Shown here: positions 56,301 to 62,118 of the stretch, piece after piece
Position numbering within the stretch: the first letter of the stretch is position 1
Layout: every line of letters begins with the position of its first letter
Source: Balneola sp.
GTDB lineage: Bacteria; Bacteroidota; Rhodothermia; Balneolales; Balneolaceae
NCBI GenBank assembly: GCA_002696035.1
Contig: NZQV01000016.1
Coordinates: 62,001 to 126,000 of the forward strand
Direction of reading: 5' to 3'
Length of the DNA stretch: 64,000 nt
The notes under the pieces: model-generated
The model's database searches: none
The model's input: the letters and a program-made list of their open reading frames with translations, nothing else
What the model was told of the DNA's origin: nothing
Program-made: the position numbers and the translations under genes

Positions 56301-56352
56301 ACTCGTTCCCAAGCTCCAGCTTGGGAACGCCCGAGTGGAAGCTCCTGCTTCC
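56301..56352. repeat. REP-type palindrome doublet between nhaC and M61 gene
   Basis: A perfect 12-bp palindrome with two-base spacer (CGTTCCCAAGCT 56304-56315 with AGCTTGGGAACG 56318-56329) is followed by a second one (GGAAGC 56337-56342 with GCTTCC 56347-56352). Outer ACTCG/CGAGT pair as well. The second stem ends on the M61 stop codon. It has the same plan as the units at 61221-61270 and 61873-62009 around the RAYT transposase. It may act as a bidirectional terminator. Confidence 0.8.
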
Positions 56353-58139
56353 TAATTCAACCAGGCACTTCTTTTTTCTCGCTGAGCATCATCAGCCCCA
56401 CTGTTCATGTCTGTCTTGAAGGACGGATCCTCGGCCAATGTCACCCGAACCGTTTTCTCTTCATTCCACCGGTGGAAAGTGATCTCAATTTCCTCACCCG
56501 GTTCATAATCACGCAAGATATCTTCTACCTCAGATATTGAACTGAGCTTAGTTCCAGCAACGGAAATGATCTCATCGGTAGACTCAATTCCAGCCTCATA
56601 AATAGGTGAGCCTTTGATGGCATTCGATCTCAAAACCCCAACTCCGTCTTCGATTCGAATATTAGTCCCCAGTACTGCTTTGCCGGGATTGGCTTTCCCA
56701 AAATTCACCCCAACACTGGCAAGCAAAGTTACATAATCCGGCATTTGGCTATCGTAGATATACTTGTTGAAAAAATCGGAGGCGAATTCTTTTCCGGCAT
56801 ATTCACCTAAAGTAGTTTCAATATCTCGGTTGGTATAAGGTACTTCCGGTTTCCCGAATTCCTGCCACATCAATTTCATGAAGTCATCCAGATTTTTATC
56901 TCCATCCAGATTTCGGAGAGAAAGATCAAGGGCCAGGCCCAAAACGCTTCCATAGCTGTAGTAGGATATGAAAGTGTTTTCTTTGTTTTGAGGATCTACT
57001 GAAGTGGCCGCATCCACAAAAGGCGCCTGATAGCTCATTTCAACCGGACTAAAAAACTGTCGCCCGGGGTGATTGAAAACATAATTGAGTCCGCCCGCCA
57101 AGCCTTCAATATACTCCTGCTCGGTGCGGACTCCGGCTCTTGCCAAGATCAATCCGGTATAGTAACTCGTAAATCCCTCTGCAAACCAAAGCTCGCCACT
57201 CATGTTGGCTTCCTCAAAATTGAATGGCTCAAGACTTGCCGGACGGATTCGCTCTACATTCCAGGTATGTACGAATTCATGTGAAATGGTCCCTATACTT
57301 GTTTCAGCAAGTGGCTCATCCAAGGGTTTGGAGTTGGTTACGATGGTAGAATTTCGATGCTCCATTCCATCGCCACTGGCATTGGGCATGAAACAATTCA
57401 GAAATACATACTCGCCATAATCCAGCTCCGGTAACTCCCCGAAGACTTCAACCTGCGCATTCACAATGGCCATCACTTTTTCAAAATATTCATCAACTTC
57501 ATCATCTGTGGCAGATGTATGCAGAGCCATATTTATGGTTTGATCTCCCACCTTCTCGGATCGTTCAAAGAAGTCTGCAATTTCAACCGGACTATCCAAG
57601 AAATAATAGAGATCCGGAGCATAAAATGTATTTCCATCTAAAGGTTTGAGCTGCGTCGCTACTTTCCAGTTCAGGTCTTCCCGAACATTAAAAGTGATCT
57701 CGATAGGTCGGTGCTCATAATCGCGCGCCCAGGCAAACGTAGCCGGCATGTTGAGGTGAGCATGAGTTTCATCTACCTGAGAGTACGTTCCATCACCGCG
57801 ATTGGCAAACAGCGTGTATTCAAATTTCACCGTGCCATCGTGTCCGCTCACATTCCACTGGTGTGTATTGGGCCGGGTGACTTCCAGCTCATTACCCTCC
57901 CCATCGGTCGCTTTCACACCATACACATTCTTGGCAAACTCATGCAGCGCATATCTTCCTGGGGAAGTCCGGCTCATTCGAACTTCCAGCACCTTATCAT
58001 CTAGATTGGTATAGGTTACGCTGATCTCTGCTTCGTGATGAACGGCATTTTCGAAGGAGATCTCGTATTTGGTAGTAGTCTGTGCGGTCAGTGATAAAGT
58101 GAGGAGTGATAAAGTAAGCGTGAACAGAATTATTCTCAT
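56352..58139 (-). CDS. M61 family metallopeptidase with PDZ domain
   Basis: A 595-residue secreted peptidase (signal peptide MRIILFTLTLSLLTLSLTAQ). The N-terminal beta domain (about 20-190) is followed by a thermolysin-like catalytic domain with the zinc motif HEFVHTWN (near residue 287) and the downstream Glu in ELWFAEGFTSYYTG. A C-terminal PDZ domain (about 490-570) has GSPIYEAGIESTDEIISVAG (core GIESTDEII). M61 enzymes are glycyl aminopeptidases in the type example; most bacterial members are uncharacterised exported peptidases. It is monocistronic, with a REP doublet at its stop and a four-helix-bundle gene unit upstream. Confidence 0.93.
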   Translation of the reverse strand: MRIILFTLTLSLLTLSLTAQTTTKYEISFENAVHHEAEISVTYTNLDDKVLEVRMSRTSPGRYALHEFAKNVYGVKATDGEGNELEVTRPNTHQWNVSGHDGTVKFEYTLFANRGDGTYSQVDETHAHLNMPATFAWARDYEHRPIEITFNVREDLNWKVATQLKPLDGNTFYAPDLYYFLDSPVEIADFFERSEKVGDQTINMALHTSATDDEVDEYFEKVMAIVNAQVEVFGELPELDYGEYVFLNCFMPNASGDGMEHRNSTIVTNSKPLDEPLAETSIGTISHEFVHTWNVERIRPASLEPFNFEEANMSGELWFAEGFTSYYTGLILARAGVRTEQEYIEGLAGGLNYVFNHPGRQFFSPVEMSYQAPFVDAATSVDPQNKENTFISYYSYGSVLGLALDLSLRNLDGDKNLDDFMKLMWQEFGKPEVPYTNRDIETTLGEYAGKEFASDFFNKYIYDSQMPDYVTLLASVGVNFGKANPGKAVLGTNIRIEDGVGVLRSNAIKGSPIYEAGIESTDEIISVAGTKLSSISEVEDILRDYEPGEEIEITFHRWNEEKTVRVTLAEDPSFKTDMNSGADDAQREKRSAWLN

Positions 58140-58200
58140 GACGGAGATTTGAGATTAGAATTGGATGGCGGAATATGGATAGGAATGGGATAAGGTTCAA

Positions 58201-58229
58201 GGTGTTAGGTGTTAGAGGCGAGGTTTTAG
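58201..58229 (+). repeat. Left inverted repeat of the four-helix-bundle unit
   Basis: GGTGTTAGGTGTTAGAGGCG then AGGTTTTAG. It matches the reverse complement of 58687-58718 at 26 of 29 positions. Together they frame the four-helix-bundle gene over about 518 bp. Confidence 0.75.
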
Positions 58230-58243
58230 TTTTACAAAGTCAG

Positions 58244-58285
58244 AAGCGATAATTTTTTCTGTAAGGAGTAGGGTTTTAATCGCTC
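58244..58285 (+). promoter_or_regulatory. Hairpin in the leader of the four-helix-bundle gene
   Basis: AGCGATAA near 58245-58252 can pair with TTAATCGCT near 58276-58284 across about 25 bases, 40-80 bases before the start codon. As the protein family binds structured RNA in other settings, this could be a target or control element; that is speculation. Confidence 0.35.
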
Positions 58286-58322
58286 TTACAATTAGAATGT
58301 AATCCTAACTCAATCCCATAAA

Positions 58323-58667
58323 ATGAAGAATTTCAAAAAACTGATTGTATGGCAACGGAGTATGGAACTTGTTTCTGAGACTCATAATGTTGTTGCAAAA
58401 CTTCCTAAAGTAGAACGATTTACATACAGAGATCAGATGGTAAGGGCTTCAATATCTATTCCTTCGAATATAGCTGAAGGTAGCAGCAGGGATAGCCGAA
58501 AAGACTTTATGCGCTTTTTAAGAATTTCATTAGGCTCACGCTTTGAACTTGAAACTCAACTATTGATGCTGGAACAGAATAAAATCATAGAAGCAAAATT
58601 TCTAACAGCAGCCATAAGCTTTAATGATGAAGTCCAGAAAATGCTCCACACCTTACTCAAAAAGTAA
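58323..58667 (+). CDS. Four-helix-bundle protein (23S rRNA intervening-sequence protein family)
   Basis: A 114-residue protein of the TIGR02436/S23 family. It shows the typical pattern: a Trp near the start (LIVWQRSMELV), an RDQMVRASISIPSNIAEGSSR core and FLRISLGSRFELETQLLML. The fold is a four-helix bundle that forms pentameric rings and binds nucleic acid; relatives are encoded in rRNA intervening sequences, and the Avd protein of diversity-generating retroelements belongs to the same superfamily. Here it is neither inside an rRNA gene nor near a reverse transcriptase. It is alone between ~29-bp inverted repeats, which suggests a small mobile unit. The function is unknown. Confidence 0.9.
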   Translation: MKNFKKLIVWQRSMELVSETHNVVAKLPKVERFTYRDQMVRASISIPSNIAEGSSRDSRKDFMRFLRISLGSRFELETQLLMLEQNKIIEAKFLTAAISFNDEVQKMLHTLLKK

Positions 58668-58686
58668 ACTACCCTCCACTATACCC

Positions 58687-58718
58687 CTAAAACCTCGCAC
58701 CTAAAACCTAACACCTAC
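58687..58718 (-). repeat. Right inverted repeat of the four-helix-bundle unit
   Basis: CTAAAACCTCGCACCTAAAA then CCTAACACCTAC, the inverted partner of 58201-58229. It ends five bases before the hmgA stop codon. Confidence 0.75.
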
Positions 58719-58723
58719 TATTC

Positions 58724-59878
58724 TTAATCCTCCAGCCAGGAAAATGGATAACTCGGATCATCCAACCGCATCGCTTCTTCGGTGACGTACATCGGGTGGA
58801 AGGTGTCGATCATGACGGCATATTCATCCGTTTCTTCGGCGCCGATACTCGCTTCGGCTTTGCCGGGTTGAGGTCCGTGGGGAATGCCGCCGGGATGGAG
58901 CGTGATATCCGCATAGCCAATTCCTTTTCGGCTCATAAAATCCCCTTCCACATAATAGATCATCTCATCGGAATCTACATTCGAATGATTATAGGGCGCT
59001 GGAATGGATTCGGGGTGATAATCGAACTTACGCGGACAGAAACTGCACACCACGTAATTATGTCCCCGGAACGTTTGATGCACCGGTGGCGGCTGATGAA
59101 TACGTCCGGTGATGGGCTCAAAATCCCGAATGTTGAAGATCCACGGATACAGATATCCATCCCAACCAACCACATCGCAGGGATGATGATCGAAAGTGTA
59201 ATGGTGGAACCGACCTCCCTTTTTTATTCTCACTTCAAAATCTCCTTCCTCAGGATGGAAAAGCTGCTCGGAAGGCAAACGAAAATCCCGTTCACAAAAC
59301 GGCGAGTTCTCCATGAACTGTCCCATTTCAGACAGGTAGCGTTTCGGGAATTCTATGGGACCGGTTGATTCCGCGATCAGAAACCGGTTTTCATCCGTTT
59401 CAAAATTCATCTGATACGTTGTACCTCGTGGAAGGAAAATATAGTCGCCCCAGCCAAAATCGAGTCGACCAAATACGGATTGAATGTGTCCTTCCCCCTC
59501 ATGGATAAAAAGCAGCTCATCGTGCTCGCCATTTCGGTAGAAATAATCCATGTTGCCGGTTGGCCGGGCTACTCCGATCTGAATGTCATTATTGAACATC
59601 AGCACTTTGCGCCCGGTGATGGGATCTCCACCTGCCGGTATATCTTTGGTTTTCAGCAATCGATGTCGCAGTGTTTTTTCATCTGCTTTCTTGATGTTGA
59701 TCTGTGCCCCTTCCTCGATCTTCTTTACCCGCGTGGGCATATGATGATGATACAACAGGGAGCTATTCCCGTGAAATCCCTCTGCTCCGAACAATTCCTC
59801 AGTATATAATTCACCATCCGGCCGACGAAATATAGTATGACGTTTATGCGGAATCTTCCCTAATGCGTGGTAATACAT
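58724..59878 (-). CDS. hmgA: Homogentisate 1,2-dioxygenase
   Basis: Opens the aromatic ring of homogentisate to maleylacetoacetate in tyrosine degradation. The 384-residue protein is slightly shorter than the ~430-residue eukaryotic enzyme and starts MYYHALGKIPHKRHTIFRRP. The cupin iron site is recognisable in HQTFRGHNYVVCSFCPRKFDYHPESIPAPYNHSNVDSDEMIYYVEG (core HNYVVCSFCPR and NVDSDEMIYYV) and GIPHGPQPGKAE. It follows hppD by 75 bp on the same strand, so one transcript should make both enzymes. The inverted-repeat element in that gap covers its leader. Confidence 0.95.
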   Translation of the reverse strand: MYYHALGKIPHKRHTIFRRPDGELYTEELFGAEGFHGNSSLLYHHHMPTRVKKIEEGAQINIKKADEKTLRHRLLKTKDIPAGGDPITGRKVLMFNNDIQIGVARPTGNMDYFYRNGEHDELLFIHEGEGHIQSVFGRLDFGWGDYIFLPRGTTYQMNFETDENRFLIAESTGPIEFPKRYLSEMGQFMENSPFCERDFRLPSEQLFHPEEGDFEVRIKKGGRFHHYTFDHHPCDVVGWDGYLYPWIFNIRDFEPITGRIHQPPPVHQTFRGHNYVVCSFCPRKFDYHPESIPAPYNHSNVDSDEMIYYVEGDFMSRKGIGYADITLHPGGIPHGPQPGKAEASIGAEETDEYAVMIDTFHPMYVTEEAMRLDDPSYPFSWLED

Positions 59879-59955
59879 AATGTTAAATTTTGAATTCTTA
59901 AATGTTAAATGGCTCGTTCCTCATTTAACATTTAAACATTGAGCATTTAAAATTT
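59879..59955. repeat. A/T-rich inverted-repeat element between hppD and hmgA
   Basis: The left arm (59879-59911: TTAAATTTTGAATTC then TTAAATGTTAAATGG) and the right arm (about 59921-59955) are inverted copies around a ten-base spacer. The right arm overlaps the hppD stop codon and the left arm ends at the hmgA start, so the whole intercistronic gap is this element. A long hairpin in the mRNA is expected. Confidence 0.6.
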
Positions 59956-61220: not shown

Positions 61221-61270
61221 CTCGTTACGAAGCTCCAGCTTCGTAATGCAGTCCTAGAAGCTCTAGCTTC
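61221..61270. repeat. REP-type palindrome doublet downstream of the RAYT gene
   Basis: CGTTACGAAGCT (61223-61234) pairs with AGCTTCGTAATG (61237-61248), and GAAGCT (61257-61262) with AGCTTC (61265-61270). It ends three bases before the transposase stop codon. Same plan as 56301-56352. Confidence 0.8.
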
Positions 61271-61273
61271 CCC

Positions 61274-61807
61274 TCAAATAATTCTATGGATATCTATTAA
61301 CCCACTTCCTCCCAAATAATCCCGCGCTGATGAATATCGCCAATCTTCCGGTTTATCCACATATCCTCGTTTAACCAGATTAAAGTGAACGTAATTGACC
61401 TTCTGATACAACATCTTTTCCTTAGAAATTTGCTTGGGATGATAGCCCTCCTGCCACACTTGATAAACAGACTCTTTCTTGCCTCTTTTTCGTGAAAATG
61501 CCAACTGTTTTAAATAAAACAGATTATTCTTTGATTTCAGAAGATCCAGAATTTGTCTGGCCGTATATGATTTAATGCTTTGCATACATGTCTTTAGATC
61601 TTCGTGCTCAGCAATCAGATGAAAGTGATTTTCCACGATGCACCAGGCATATACTTTAAGTCCGCTTTGAGACTGATGATACTTTATTGCTTCAATAACG
61701 TATCGTGCTATTTCCGGTTTTGAAAATAGCGGCAATCCATGAACAAAACTGCTGGTAAGCAAATAAGGATACCATGTTTCGTGTTGTTTGTAACGGCTTC
61801 TTCCCAT
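61274..61807 (-). CDS. REP-associated tyrosine transposase (RAYT, IS200-like Y1 family)
   Basis: A 177-residue single-domain HUH transposase. The HUH motif is His61-Phe-His63 in IVENHFHLIAE, and the catalytic Tyr is probably Tyr81 in QSIKSYTARQIL. The Trp-rich C-terminal part has YQVWQEGYHPKQI and KPEDWRYSSARDYLGGSGL, typical of the RAYT/TnpA-REP group and unlike IS200 proper. RAYTs are immobile-looking single genes that act on flanking REP palindromes. Here palindromes are found on both sides, and a related doublet is 5 kb away. The gene sits between the hppD and paaA promoters and has no internal break, so it may be active. Confidence 0.88.
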   Translation of the reverse strand: MGRSRYKQHETWYPYLLTSSFVHGLPLFSKPEIARYVIEAIKYHQSQSGLKVYAWCIVENHFHLIAEHEDLKTCMQSIKSYTARQILDLLKSKNNLFYLKQLAFSRKRGKKESVYQVWQEGYHPKQISKEKMLYQKVNYVHFNLVKRGYVDKPEDWRYSSARDYLGGSGLIDIHRII

Positions 61808-61872
61808 TGTCTTTTTTATAGTAAGAGCGATGACAATGGGATTCCTTACAAATTTTTTGGAAAAGTCATCAT

Positions 61873-62009
61873 GGTTATGCAGCTCTGGCTGCGTAACCCT
61901 CTCCCGGAAGCTCCAGCTTCTAGTGAAACAGTATTCGGGGTGGCAGACTCATTACATGCCACGGGAAACTGGAGTTTCCTGACTGCATTGCGAAGATGGA
62001 CCTTCGCAA
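61873..62009. repeat. Two opposed REP doublets upstream of the RAYT gene
   Basis: First doublet: GGTTATGCAGC (61873-61883) with GCTGCGTAACC (61888-61898), then GAAGCT/AGCTTC (61907-61920). A GTGGCA/TGCCAC dyad (61940-61962) follows. Second doublet, in opposite orientation: GGAAACT/AGTTTCC (61964-61979) and TTGCGAAG/CTTCGCAA (61988-62009). The second, reverse-complemented, aligns with 61221-61270 over about 50 bases (shared CTCGTT, CGAAG, GCAGTC, TTTCCC or TTCCC segments). The units are therefore inverted around the transposase. Confidence 0.8.
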
Positions 62010-62118
62010 CGAGGTCGAAAAGTGATTGTGGGAGATCATTAAATATGGGATACTACCTTCAAATAACTTTATATTTCAATTCCCGAACTACTCTTTTTAA
62101 ATTCCTGTTAAAGAGACT

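Follow-up and report, generated by a model that had tools for sequence, protein, structure and literature searches.

Four-helix-bundle (IVP/S23) genes framed by inverted heptanucleotide arrays: candidate small mobile units in Balneola and other bacteria

In Balneola sp. and many other bacteria, most genes of the IVP/S23 family lie in the loop of a hairpin formed by inverted arrays of heptanucleotides (heptads). The distribution of these genes and their arms suggests a spread in the form of small mobile units. We think it fairly probable that the IVP protein mediates the spread of these units, which are bounded by (TNAGNNN)n hairpin arms, and that in this genus their expression is of the competence type.

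The IVP unit of the window

The window, a stretch of 64,000 nt from contig NZQV01000016.1 (assembly GCA_002696035.1), encodes an IVP/S23 four-helix-bundle protein of 114 amino acids (58323..58667, + strand). Its gene is the only one between those of a peptidase M61 (56352..58139, − strand), which lies outside the unit, and homogentisate 1,2-dioxygenase (HGD; 58724..59878, − strand). Both flanks serve as the context of the site. HPPD is also among the neighbours, which are ordinary metabolic-type genes. A sequence-only reading of this DNA had described a lone IVP/S23 gene, framed by inverted repeats of 29 bp matching at 26 of 29 positions and encoding no transposase. The repeats were confirmed and, in an extended register, were complementary at 27 of 30 positions (58200-58229 and 58687-58716). 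The IVP open reading frame was alone between them, and no transposase was found in the unit. Both arms are tandem heptads with the degenerate unit GGTNTTA. The left array (58194..58229, + strand; GGTTCAA GGTGTTA GGTGTTA GAGGCGA GGTTTTA G) begins one heptad before the arm proper, and the right array (58687..58716, − strand) is inverted relative to it. Within the arms, a promoter-like motif (GTAAGG-N16-CTCTTAC; 58261..58289, + strand) is located 33 nt upstream of the ATG.

The window arms are not a chance pairing. Their arm score was 45, and a score of at least 28 was reached by 1% of 299 pseudo-positions in the window and by 0.8% of 260 control positions inside other IVP loci. We surveyed 864 kb of the genome, comprising the window and most of contig C14 (approximately 800 kb, read as stretches). 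Only three inverted pairs of such strength in it enclosed an identified small gene: two surrounded IVP genes (arm units of 7 and 8 bp) and one a Y1 transposase with its own REPs. Long-loop arms of the heptad type were found around IVP genes only. No target-site duplication was apparent at the junctions compared between genomes, which were blurred by divergence. An Rfam scan of nine IVP loci gave no relevant match.

IVP genes, often annotated as 'four helix bundle protein', rank with the most frequent small genes whose role is unknown. The assignment of the window protein was clear from PF05635 (112.8 bits, cut-off 33.8; E = 1.2e-32) and TIGR02436 (110, cut-off 24), whereas the Avd profile NF033474 scored 26.2, below its cut-off of 80. 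An AF2 model showed a four-helix bundle (pLDDT 94.8), which matched the solved homologues 2gsc (TM 0.84-0.88) and 2rld, and more weakly the Avd structure 4DWL (TM 0.77-0.81). A profile search detected no Y1 domain in the protein, and we know of no catalytic residue in the IVP/S23 family. The protein is under purifying selection, with dN/dS of 0.04-0.26 where measurable. A search of a phage collection for IVP gave no match.

Inverted heptad arms across bacteria

The IVP gene in the loop of a heptad hairpin is a very widespread class. In an early test of 58 IVP loci the majority of genes had arms. In a set of 100 loci from relatives and Bacteroidota, 68 had inverted arms with a score of at least 28, compared with 1% for window pseudo-positions, 2.3% for mispaired flanks and 7% for direct orientation. 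Autocorrelation of the arms of these 100 loci peaked at lags of 7, 14, 21 and 28. In an independent GTDB set, arms occurred at 64% of 45 Bacteroidota loci and at 81% of 31 loci outside this phylum (Clostridia, Treponema, CPR, KSB1, Thiohalocapsa and others); control positions within these loci reached 0.8%. IVP genes on plasmids were nearly all cyanobacterial; arms were present in 11 of 12 plasmid loci, all 12 from cyanobacteria. At three loci on cyanobacterial plasmids (L434, L439, L445), heptad-framed IVP genes were situated within CRISPR operons (cas6/cas4; cmr2/cmr3).

A 7-position model of 98 arms gave the consensus TNAGNNN, a better fit than column-permuted controls. The version of the heptad differs from locus to locus, and its 'AG' is not universal: the family of L144, L146 and L147 has GAC. 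Units of 8 bp replace heptads at L006 and L008, and about one third of IVP loci fall under the arm-score threshold of 28. Because the heptads are degenerate, a strict tandem-array scan missed most of them; they were detected with a hairpin scan.

Gene and heptad family travel together

The sequence-only reading expected of a mobile unit that different four-helix-bundle proteins would be found between the same ends, and different IVP proteins did lie between inverted heptad arms at many sites. Related IVP proteins at unrelated sites had the same heptads. Among non-orthologous IVP pairs, defined as loci with unrelated outer flanks, the heptad family was shared in 0-2% of pairs below 60% protein identity, in 21% at 60-70% and in 67% at 70-80% (n = 6 pairs). 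Where a family was shared, its orientation relative to the gene was always the same. The tendency of non-orthologous IVPs more than 70% identical to share a heptad family indicates that gene and arms travel together. Heptad family correlates with protein clade at unrelated sites, across genera and phyla. The window subfamily (GGTNTTA) occupies three sites: HGD-M61 here, one on C14 that this genome has in common with its sisters, and one in G001 and G007.

The ends also occur as bare hairpins. In the window, one of these (AATGTTAAATTTTGAATTC...; 59879..59954) lies in the gap between the HGD and HPPD genes. The genome contains 11 bare GGTKTTA loci outside IVP units, none with an IVP gene, and other heptad families are also bare on contig C14. 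GGTKTTA pairs were present in all 10 genomes of the genus (1-47 matches), with 0-2 matches outside it. Bare hairpins were frequently located at gene ends. Many were present in G001, some with a second hairpin nested in the loop; at L416, L418, L424 and L426 of this genome the nested hairpin family is of the TGAGCGGAAGCGAAAGATC type. The earlier proposal of a minimal mobile unit was largely supported in that the block of gene plus ends behaves as a unit, but these ends are not exclusive to gene-bearing copies. That reading had regarded freely occurring repeats unconnected with such genes as evidence against it; the ends do occur without a gene, yet they remain tied to IVP families.

Gain and loss at individual sites

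Precisely empty or gene-less versions of IVP sites, as anticipated for a mobile unit, exist in relatives. The IVP gene was missing from the window site between the M61 and HGD genes in all seven comparable sister genomes. In G006 a bare heptad hairpin was found in the same context, in G001, G005 and G007 the left array was present but ran on into other sequence, and in G015 the heptads were absent. Given the flanking-gene tree, in which two deep nodes were weakly supported, the simplest history is a gain of the IVP gene on the branch leading to this genome. The HGD/HPPD gap contains an IVP gene in G022. The site near 157.13 kb of C14 is virgin in this genome, with the upstream stop about 20 bp from the downstream start, and carries heptads, an IVP gene and inverted heptads in G001, G005 and G007.

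A fixed syntenic place in all relatives had been named as the outcome that would speak against mobility. It was not seen at the window site, but some copies occupy sites that are fixed across the genus. Upstream of recN, an IVP gene was present in 9 of 10 genus members and in none of the genomes outside. Upstream of smc, it was likewise present in 9 of 10 members, while most other genera were virgin and G003 had a bare hairpin. The copies at recN and smc look vertically maintained. The occurrence of virgin, bare and gene-bearing states across relatives shows that units come and go and that some persist for long.

A promoter-like motif shared with DNA-uptake genes

The motif GTAAGG-N16-CTCTWAC had 32 matches in the genome, one with altered spacing. 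Exact copies numbered 12-31 per genome in the 10 genomes of the genus and 0-3 elsewhere, and reversed-pattern controls gave 0-2. At the 30 loci of this genome that were read, the genes behind the motif were seven IVP genes, several Y1 transposases, ComEC, ComM/YifB, SSB, RadC, RecQ, two integron integrases, GxxExxY, DUF559, GIY-YIG and DUF1508. In sister genomes the motif preceded the same gene classes. ComEC, ComM, SSB and RadC together are typical of competence regulons, and the window motif is common to comEC, comM, ssb and radC. From this gene set, GTAAGG-N16-CTCTWAC is a candidate competence promoter.

Among 100 IVP loci the motif was upstream in sense at 34 and antisense at none. It was missing from about two thirds of the IVP loci sampled and lay outside the arms at some (recN, L003, L286); it is therefore no constant component of the unit. 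We rejected its interpretation as an RNA hairpin or unit component, since it has a fixed spacing, precedes many genes other than IVP and is sometimes located outside the arms. In other genera (L353, L354), recN lacks the IVP gene but has a related sequence of the GTAAGG type in front of it; at recN the motif may thus predate the IVP unit.

Other genes behind the motif were observed in settings of their own. Two integron-type integrases (TIGR02249) of one genome (L285, L294) were each situated behind a competence-type motif. The GxxExxY and GIY-YIG genes at L290 (G000:C3 near 88 kb) and L312 (G000:C21 near 125 kb) were each framed by their own characteristic inverted repeat (41 nt; CCCTGCCTTCGCAGGGATGAC type), and may be additional small units of gene plus repeat within the same putative regulon.

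Relation to known systems

The nearest relatives of the window unit are the intervening sequences (IVSs) of 23S rRNA that carry S23 genes, as in Coxiella and Leptospira. The two have in common the S23/IVP protein, a stem of terminal inverted repeats roughly 28-30 bp long, and a sporadic distribution. In Coxiella the terminal stem of the IVS measures 28 bp, and IVSs have been suggested to be mobile (PMC4990558). The window unit differs in being intergenic between metabolic genes rather than in helix 9, 25 or 45 of 23S rRNA, and in having heptad-array arms, many bare relatives in the genome and its own promoter-like motif. Excision of 23S rRNA IVSs is performed by RNase III.

A second likeness is to REP/RAYT systems, which also combine a single gene within inverted repeats, scattered gene-less hairpins and co-specificity of gene and repeat. 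However, the IVP protein has no Y1/HUH nuclease, and its arms are 7-bp tandem arrays instead of REP palindromes. The window itself contains a Y1_Tnp (RAYT-type) gene (61274..61807, − strand), which also has the promoter-like motif in front of it (61821-61849) and is assigned to the same putative regulon as the IVP gene. A role of this RAYT as mover of the heptads was unsupported, since it lies within its own REP-type inverted pair (61221-62013; GAAGCTCCAGCTTC), which is unlike the heptads. IVP units resemble IS elements and MITEs in their terminal inverted repeats and differ from IS elements in the absence of a transposase. An integron cassette was also considered, as the arm sequence GTTAGGT fits the attC core GTTRRRY. 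It was rejected by inspection: GTTRRRY comes first and RYYYAAC second, opposite to the order in attC.

Repeats with 7-nt units, like the IVP arms, are known as cyanobacterial STRR, as the repeats of the trnL intron P6b and as the TAACTGA repeats of Beggiatoaceae. In Nostoc, the P6b repeats make up both sides of a stem and include the Class II motif NNTGAGT (PMC4476775); the Beggiatoaceae repeat has a 7-nt unit (PMC4679880). Both NNTGAGT and TAACTGA (complement TCAGTTA) fit TNAGNNN, and cyanobacterial IVP genes are framed by 7-nt units of this kind. The similarity in sequence is a lead that may connect these repeats with IVP units. To our knowledge, the origin of heptanucleotide repeats, which have been reported from separate lineages, has not been explained. 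In the open-licence literature we found no description of IVP genes with heptad ends or heptamers, or of their mobility.

Proposed mechanism and alternatives

The window unit is probably an IVS-like and REP/RAYT-like mobile unit outside rRNA that acts on folded single-stranded DNA in competent cells. We propose that the pentameric IVP protein attaches to its heptad hairpin in folded form, which would most likely be single-stranded DNA in the course of natural transformation. Through the single-strand recombination machinery of the host, the unit would then be inserted, copied or lost, both at intergenic sites and in hairpin loops. In this genus the unit would be expressed from the promoter common to the DNA-uptake genes. 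Hairpins of folded single-stranded DNA are known substrates of integron integrases and of Y1 transposases, and IVP proteins with their hairpins would form a third such pair beside them. The analysis establishes the arms and their heptads, their distribution, the joint travel of gene and arms, the gain and loss of gene and hairpin, the selection on the protein and the common motif; hairpin binding by the pentamer, the single-stranded substrate, reliance on host recombination, an active part of the protein in movement and the competence-promoter role of the motif belong to the proposal.

The IVP gene might instead be cargo, with intergenic heptad hairpins that were already in place serving as hot spots into which it inserts or which capture it. 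The hairpins would arise and spread by themselves, for instance through slippage during replication and through template switching, with no role for the protein. Such a history accommodates the heptad arrays that several gene-less relatives have at the window site, where gain on this genome's own branch is simplest, and also the bare heptad hairpins of G001 that hold another hairpin in their loop. We nevertheless regard it as unlikely, as cargo would not explain the correlation of heptad family with protein clade at unrelated sites in different genera and phyla, the joint absence of gene and heptads from virgin sites, or the restriction of long-loop heptad-type arms to IVP genes in the 864 kb. 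An even less likely explanation is that the heptad hairpins are ordinary host terminators or mRNA stabilisers beside which IVP genes are frequent passengers. The frequent position of bare hairpins at gene ends would be expected of such elements, but matched arms flank the gene on both sides, in constant orientation and with clade-specific heptads. They occur at only 0.8-1% of control positions and around no other small genes in the 864 kb, which leaves this explanation a very small chance of being correct.

The sequence-only reading had also raised an RNA-guided element in partnership with a reverse transcriptase. A unit working at the RNA level, like the rRNA IVSs or the Avd of diversity-generating retroelements, would have its folded transcript processed or reverse-transcribed with an IVP/Avd-type protein as RNA-binding partner and then reinserted. 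The protein family and the arm length, comparable to the 28-bp stem of the Coxiella IVS (PMC4990558), recall the rRNA elements, and the fold is shared with Avd 4DWL. Yet the whole genome, including the window neighbourhood, gave no RVT_1 match, on which ground the retroelement route was rejected, and the Avd profile score of 26 is far under the cut-off of 80. Arm mismatches read on the sense strand were A.C in 287 cases and G.U in 199 (per-locus p = 0.036; orthologues not removed). This is the reverse of the bias towards wobble pairs that maintenance of a sense RNA hairpin would produce, and such maintenance was not supported. We consider an RNA-level unit improbable. A folded bottom strand is possible, as the arm sequences faintly hint.

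Implications

More broadly, IVP/S23 proteins may mark out a class of small mobile units that lack any recognised nuclease, with each protein binding specifically to its own (TNAGNNN)n hairpin as folded single-stranded DNA. Gene-bearing and bare copies would spread during natural transformation and so explain the heptanucleotide repeats of Cyanobacteria, Beggiatoaceae and Bacteroidota as well as the rRNA intervening sequences. We offer this generalization tentatively and think it somewhat doubtful in its full breadth. The pairing of gene and repeat across phyla joins rRNA intervening sequences, STRR-type repeats and Avd-like proteins as one testable system, of which the IVP genes that in one genus sit in number behind the promoter-like motif of DNA-uptake genes are a part. 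Since this motif is common to integron integrases and Y1 transposases, with their folded single-stranded hairpins as substrates, it provides a concrete biochemical prediction for the IVP protein.
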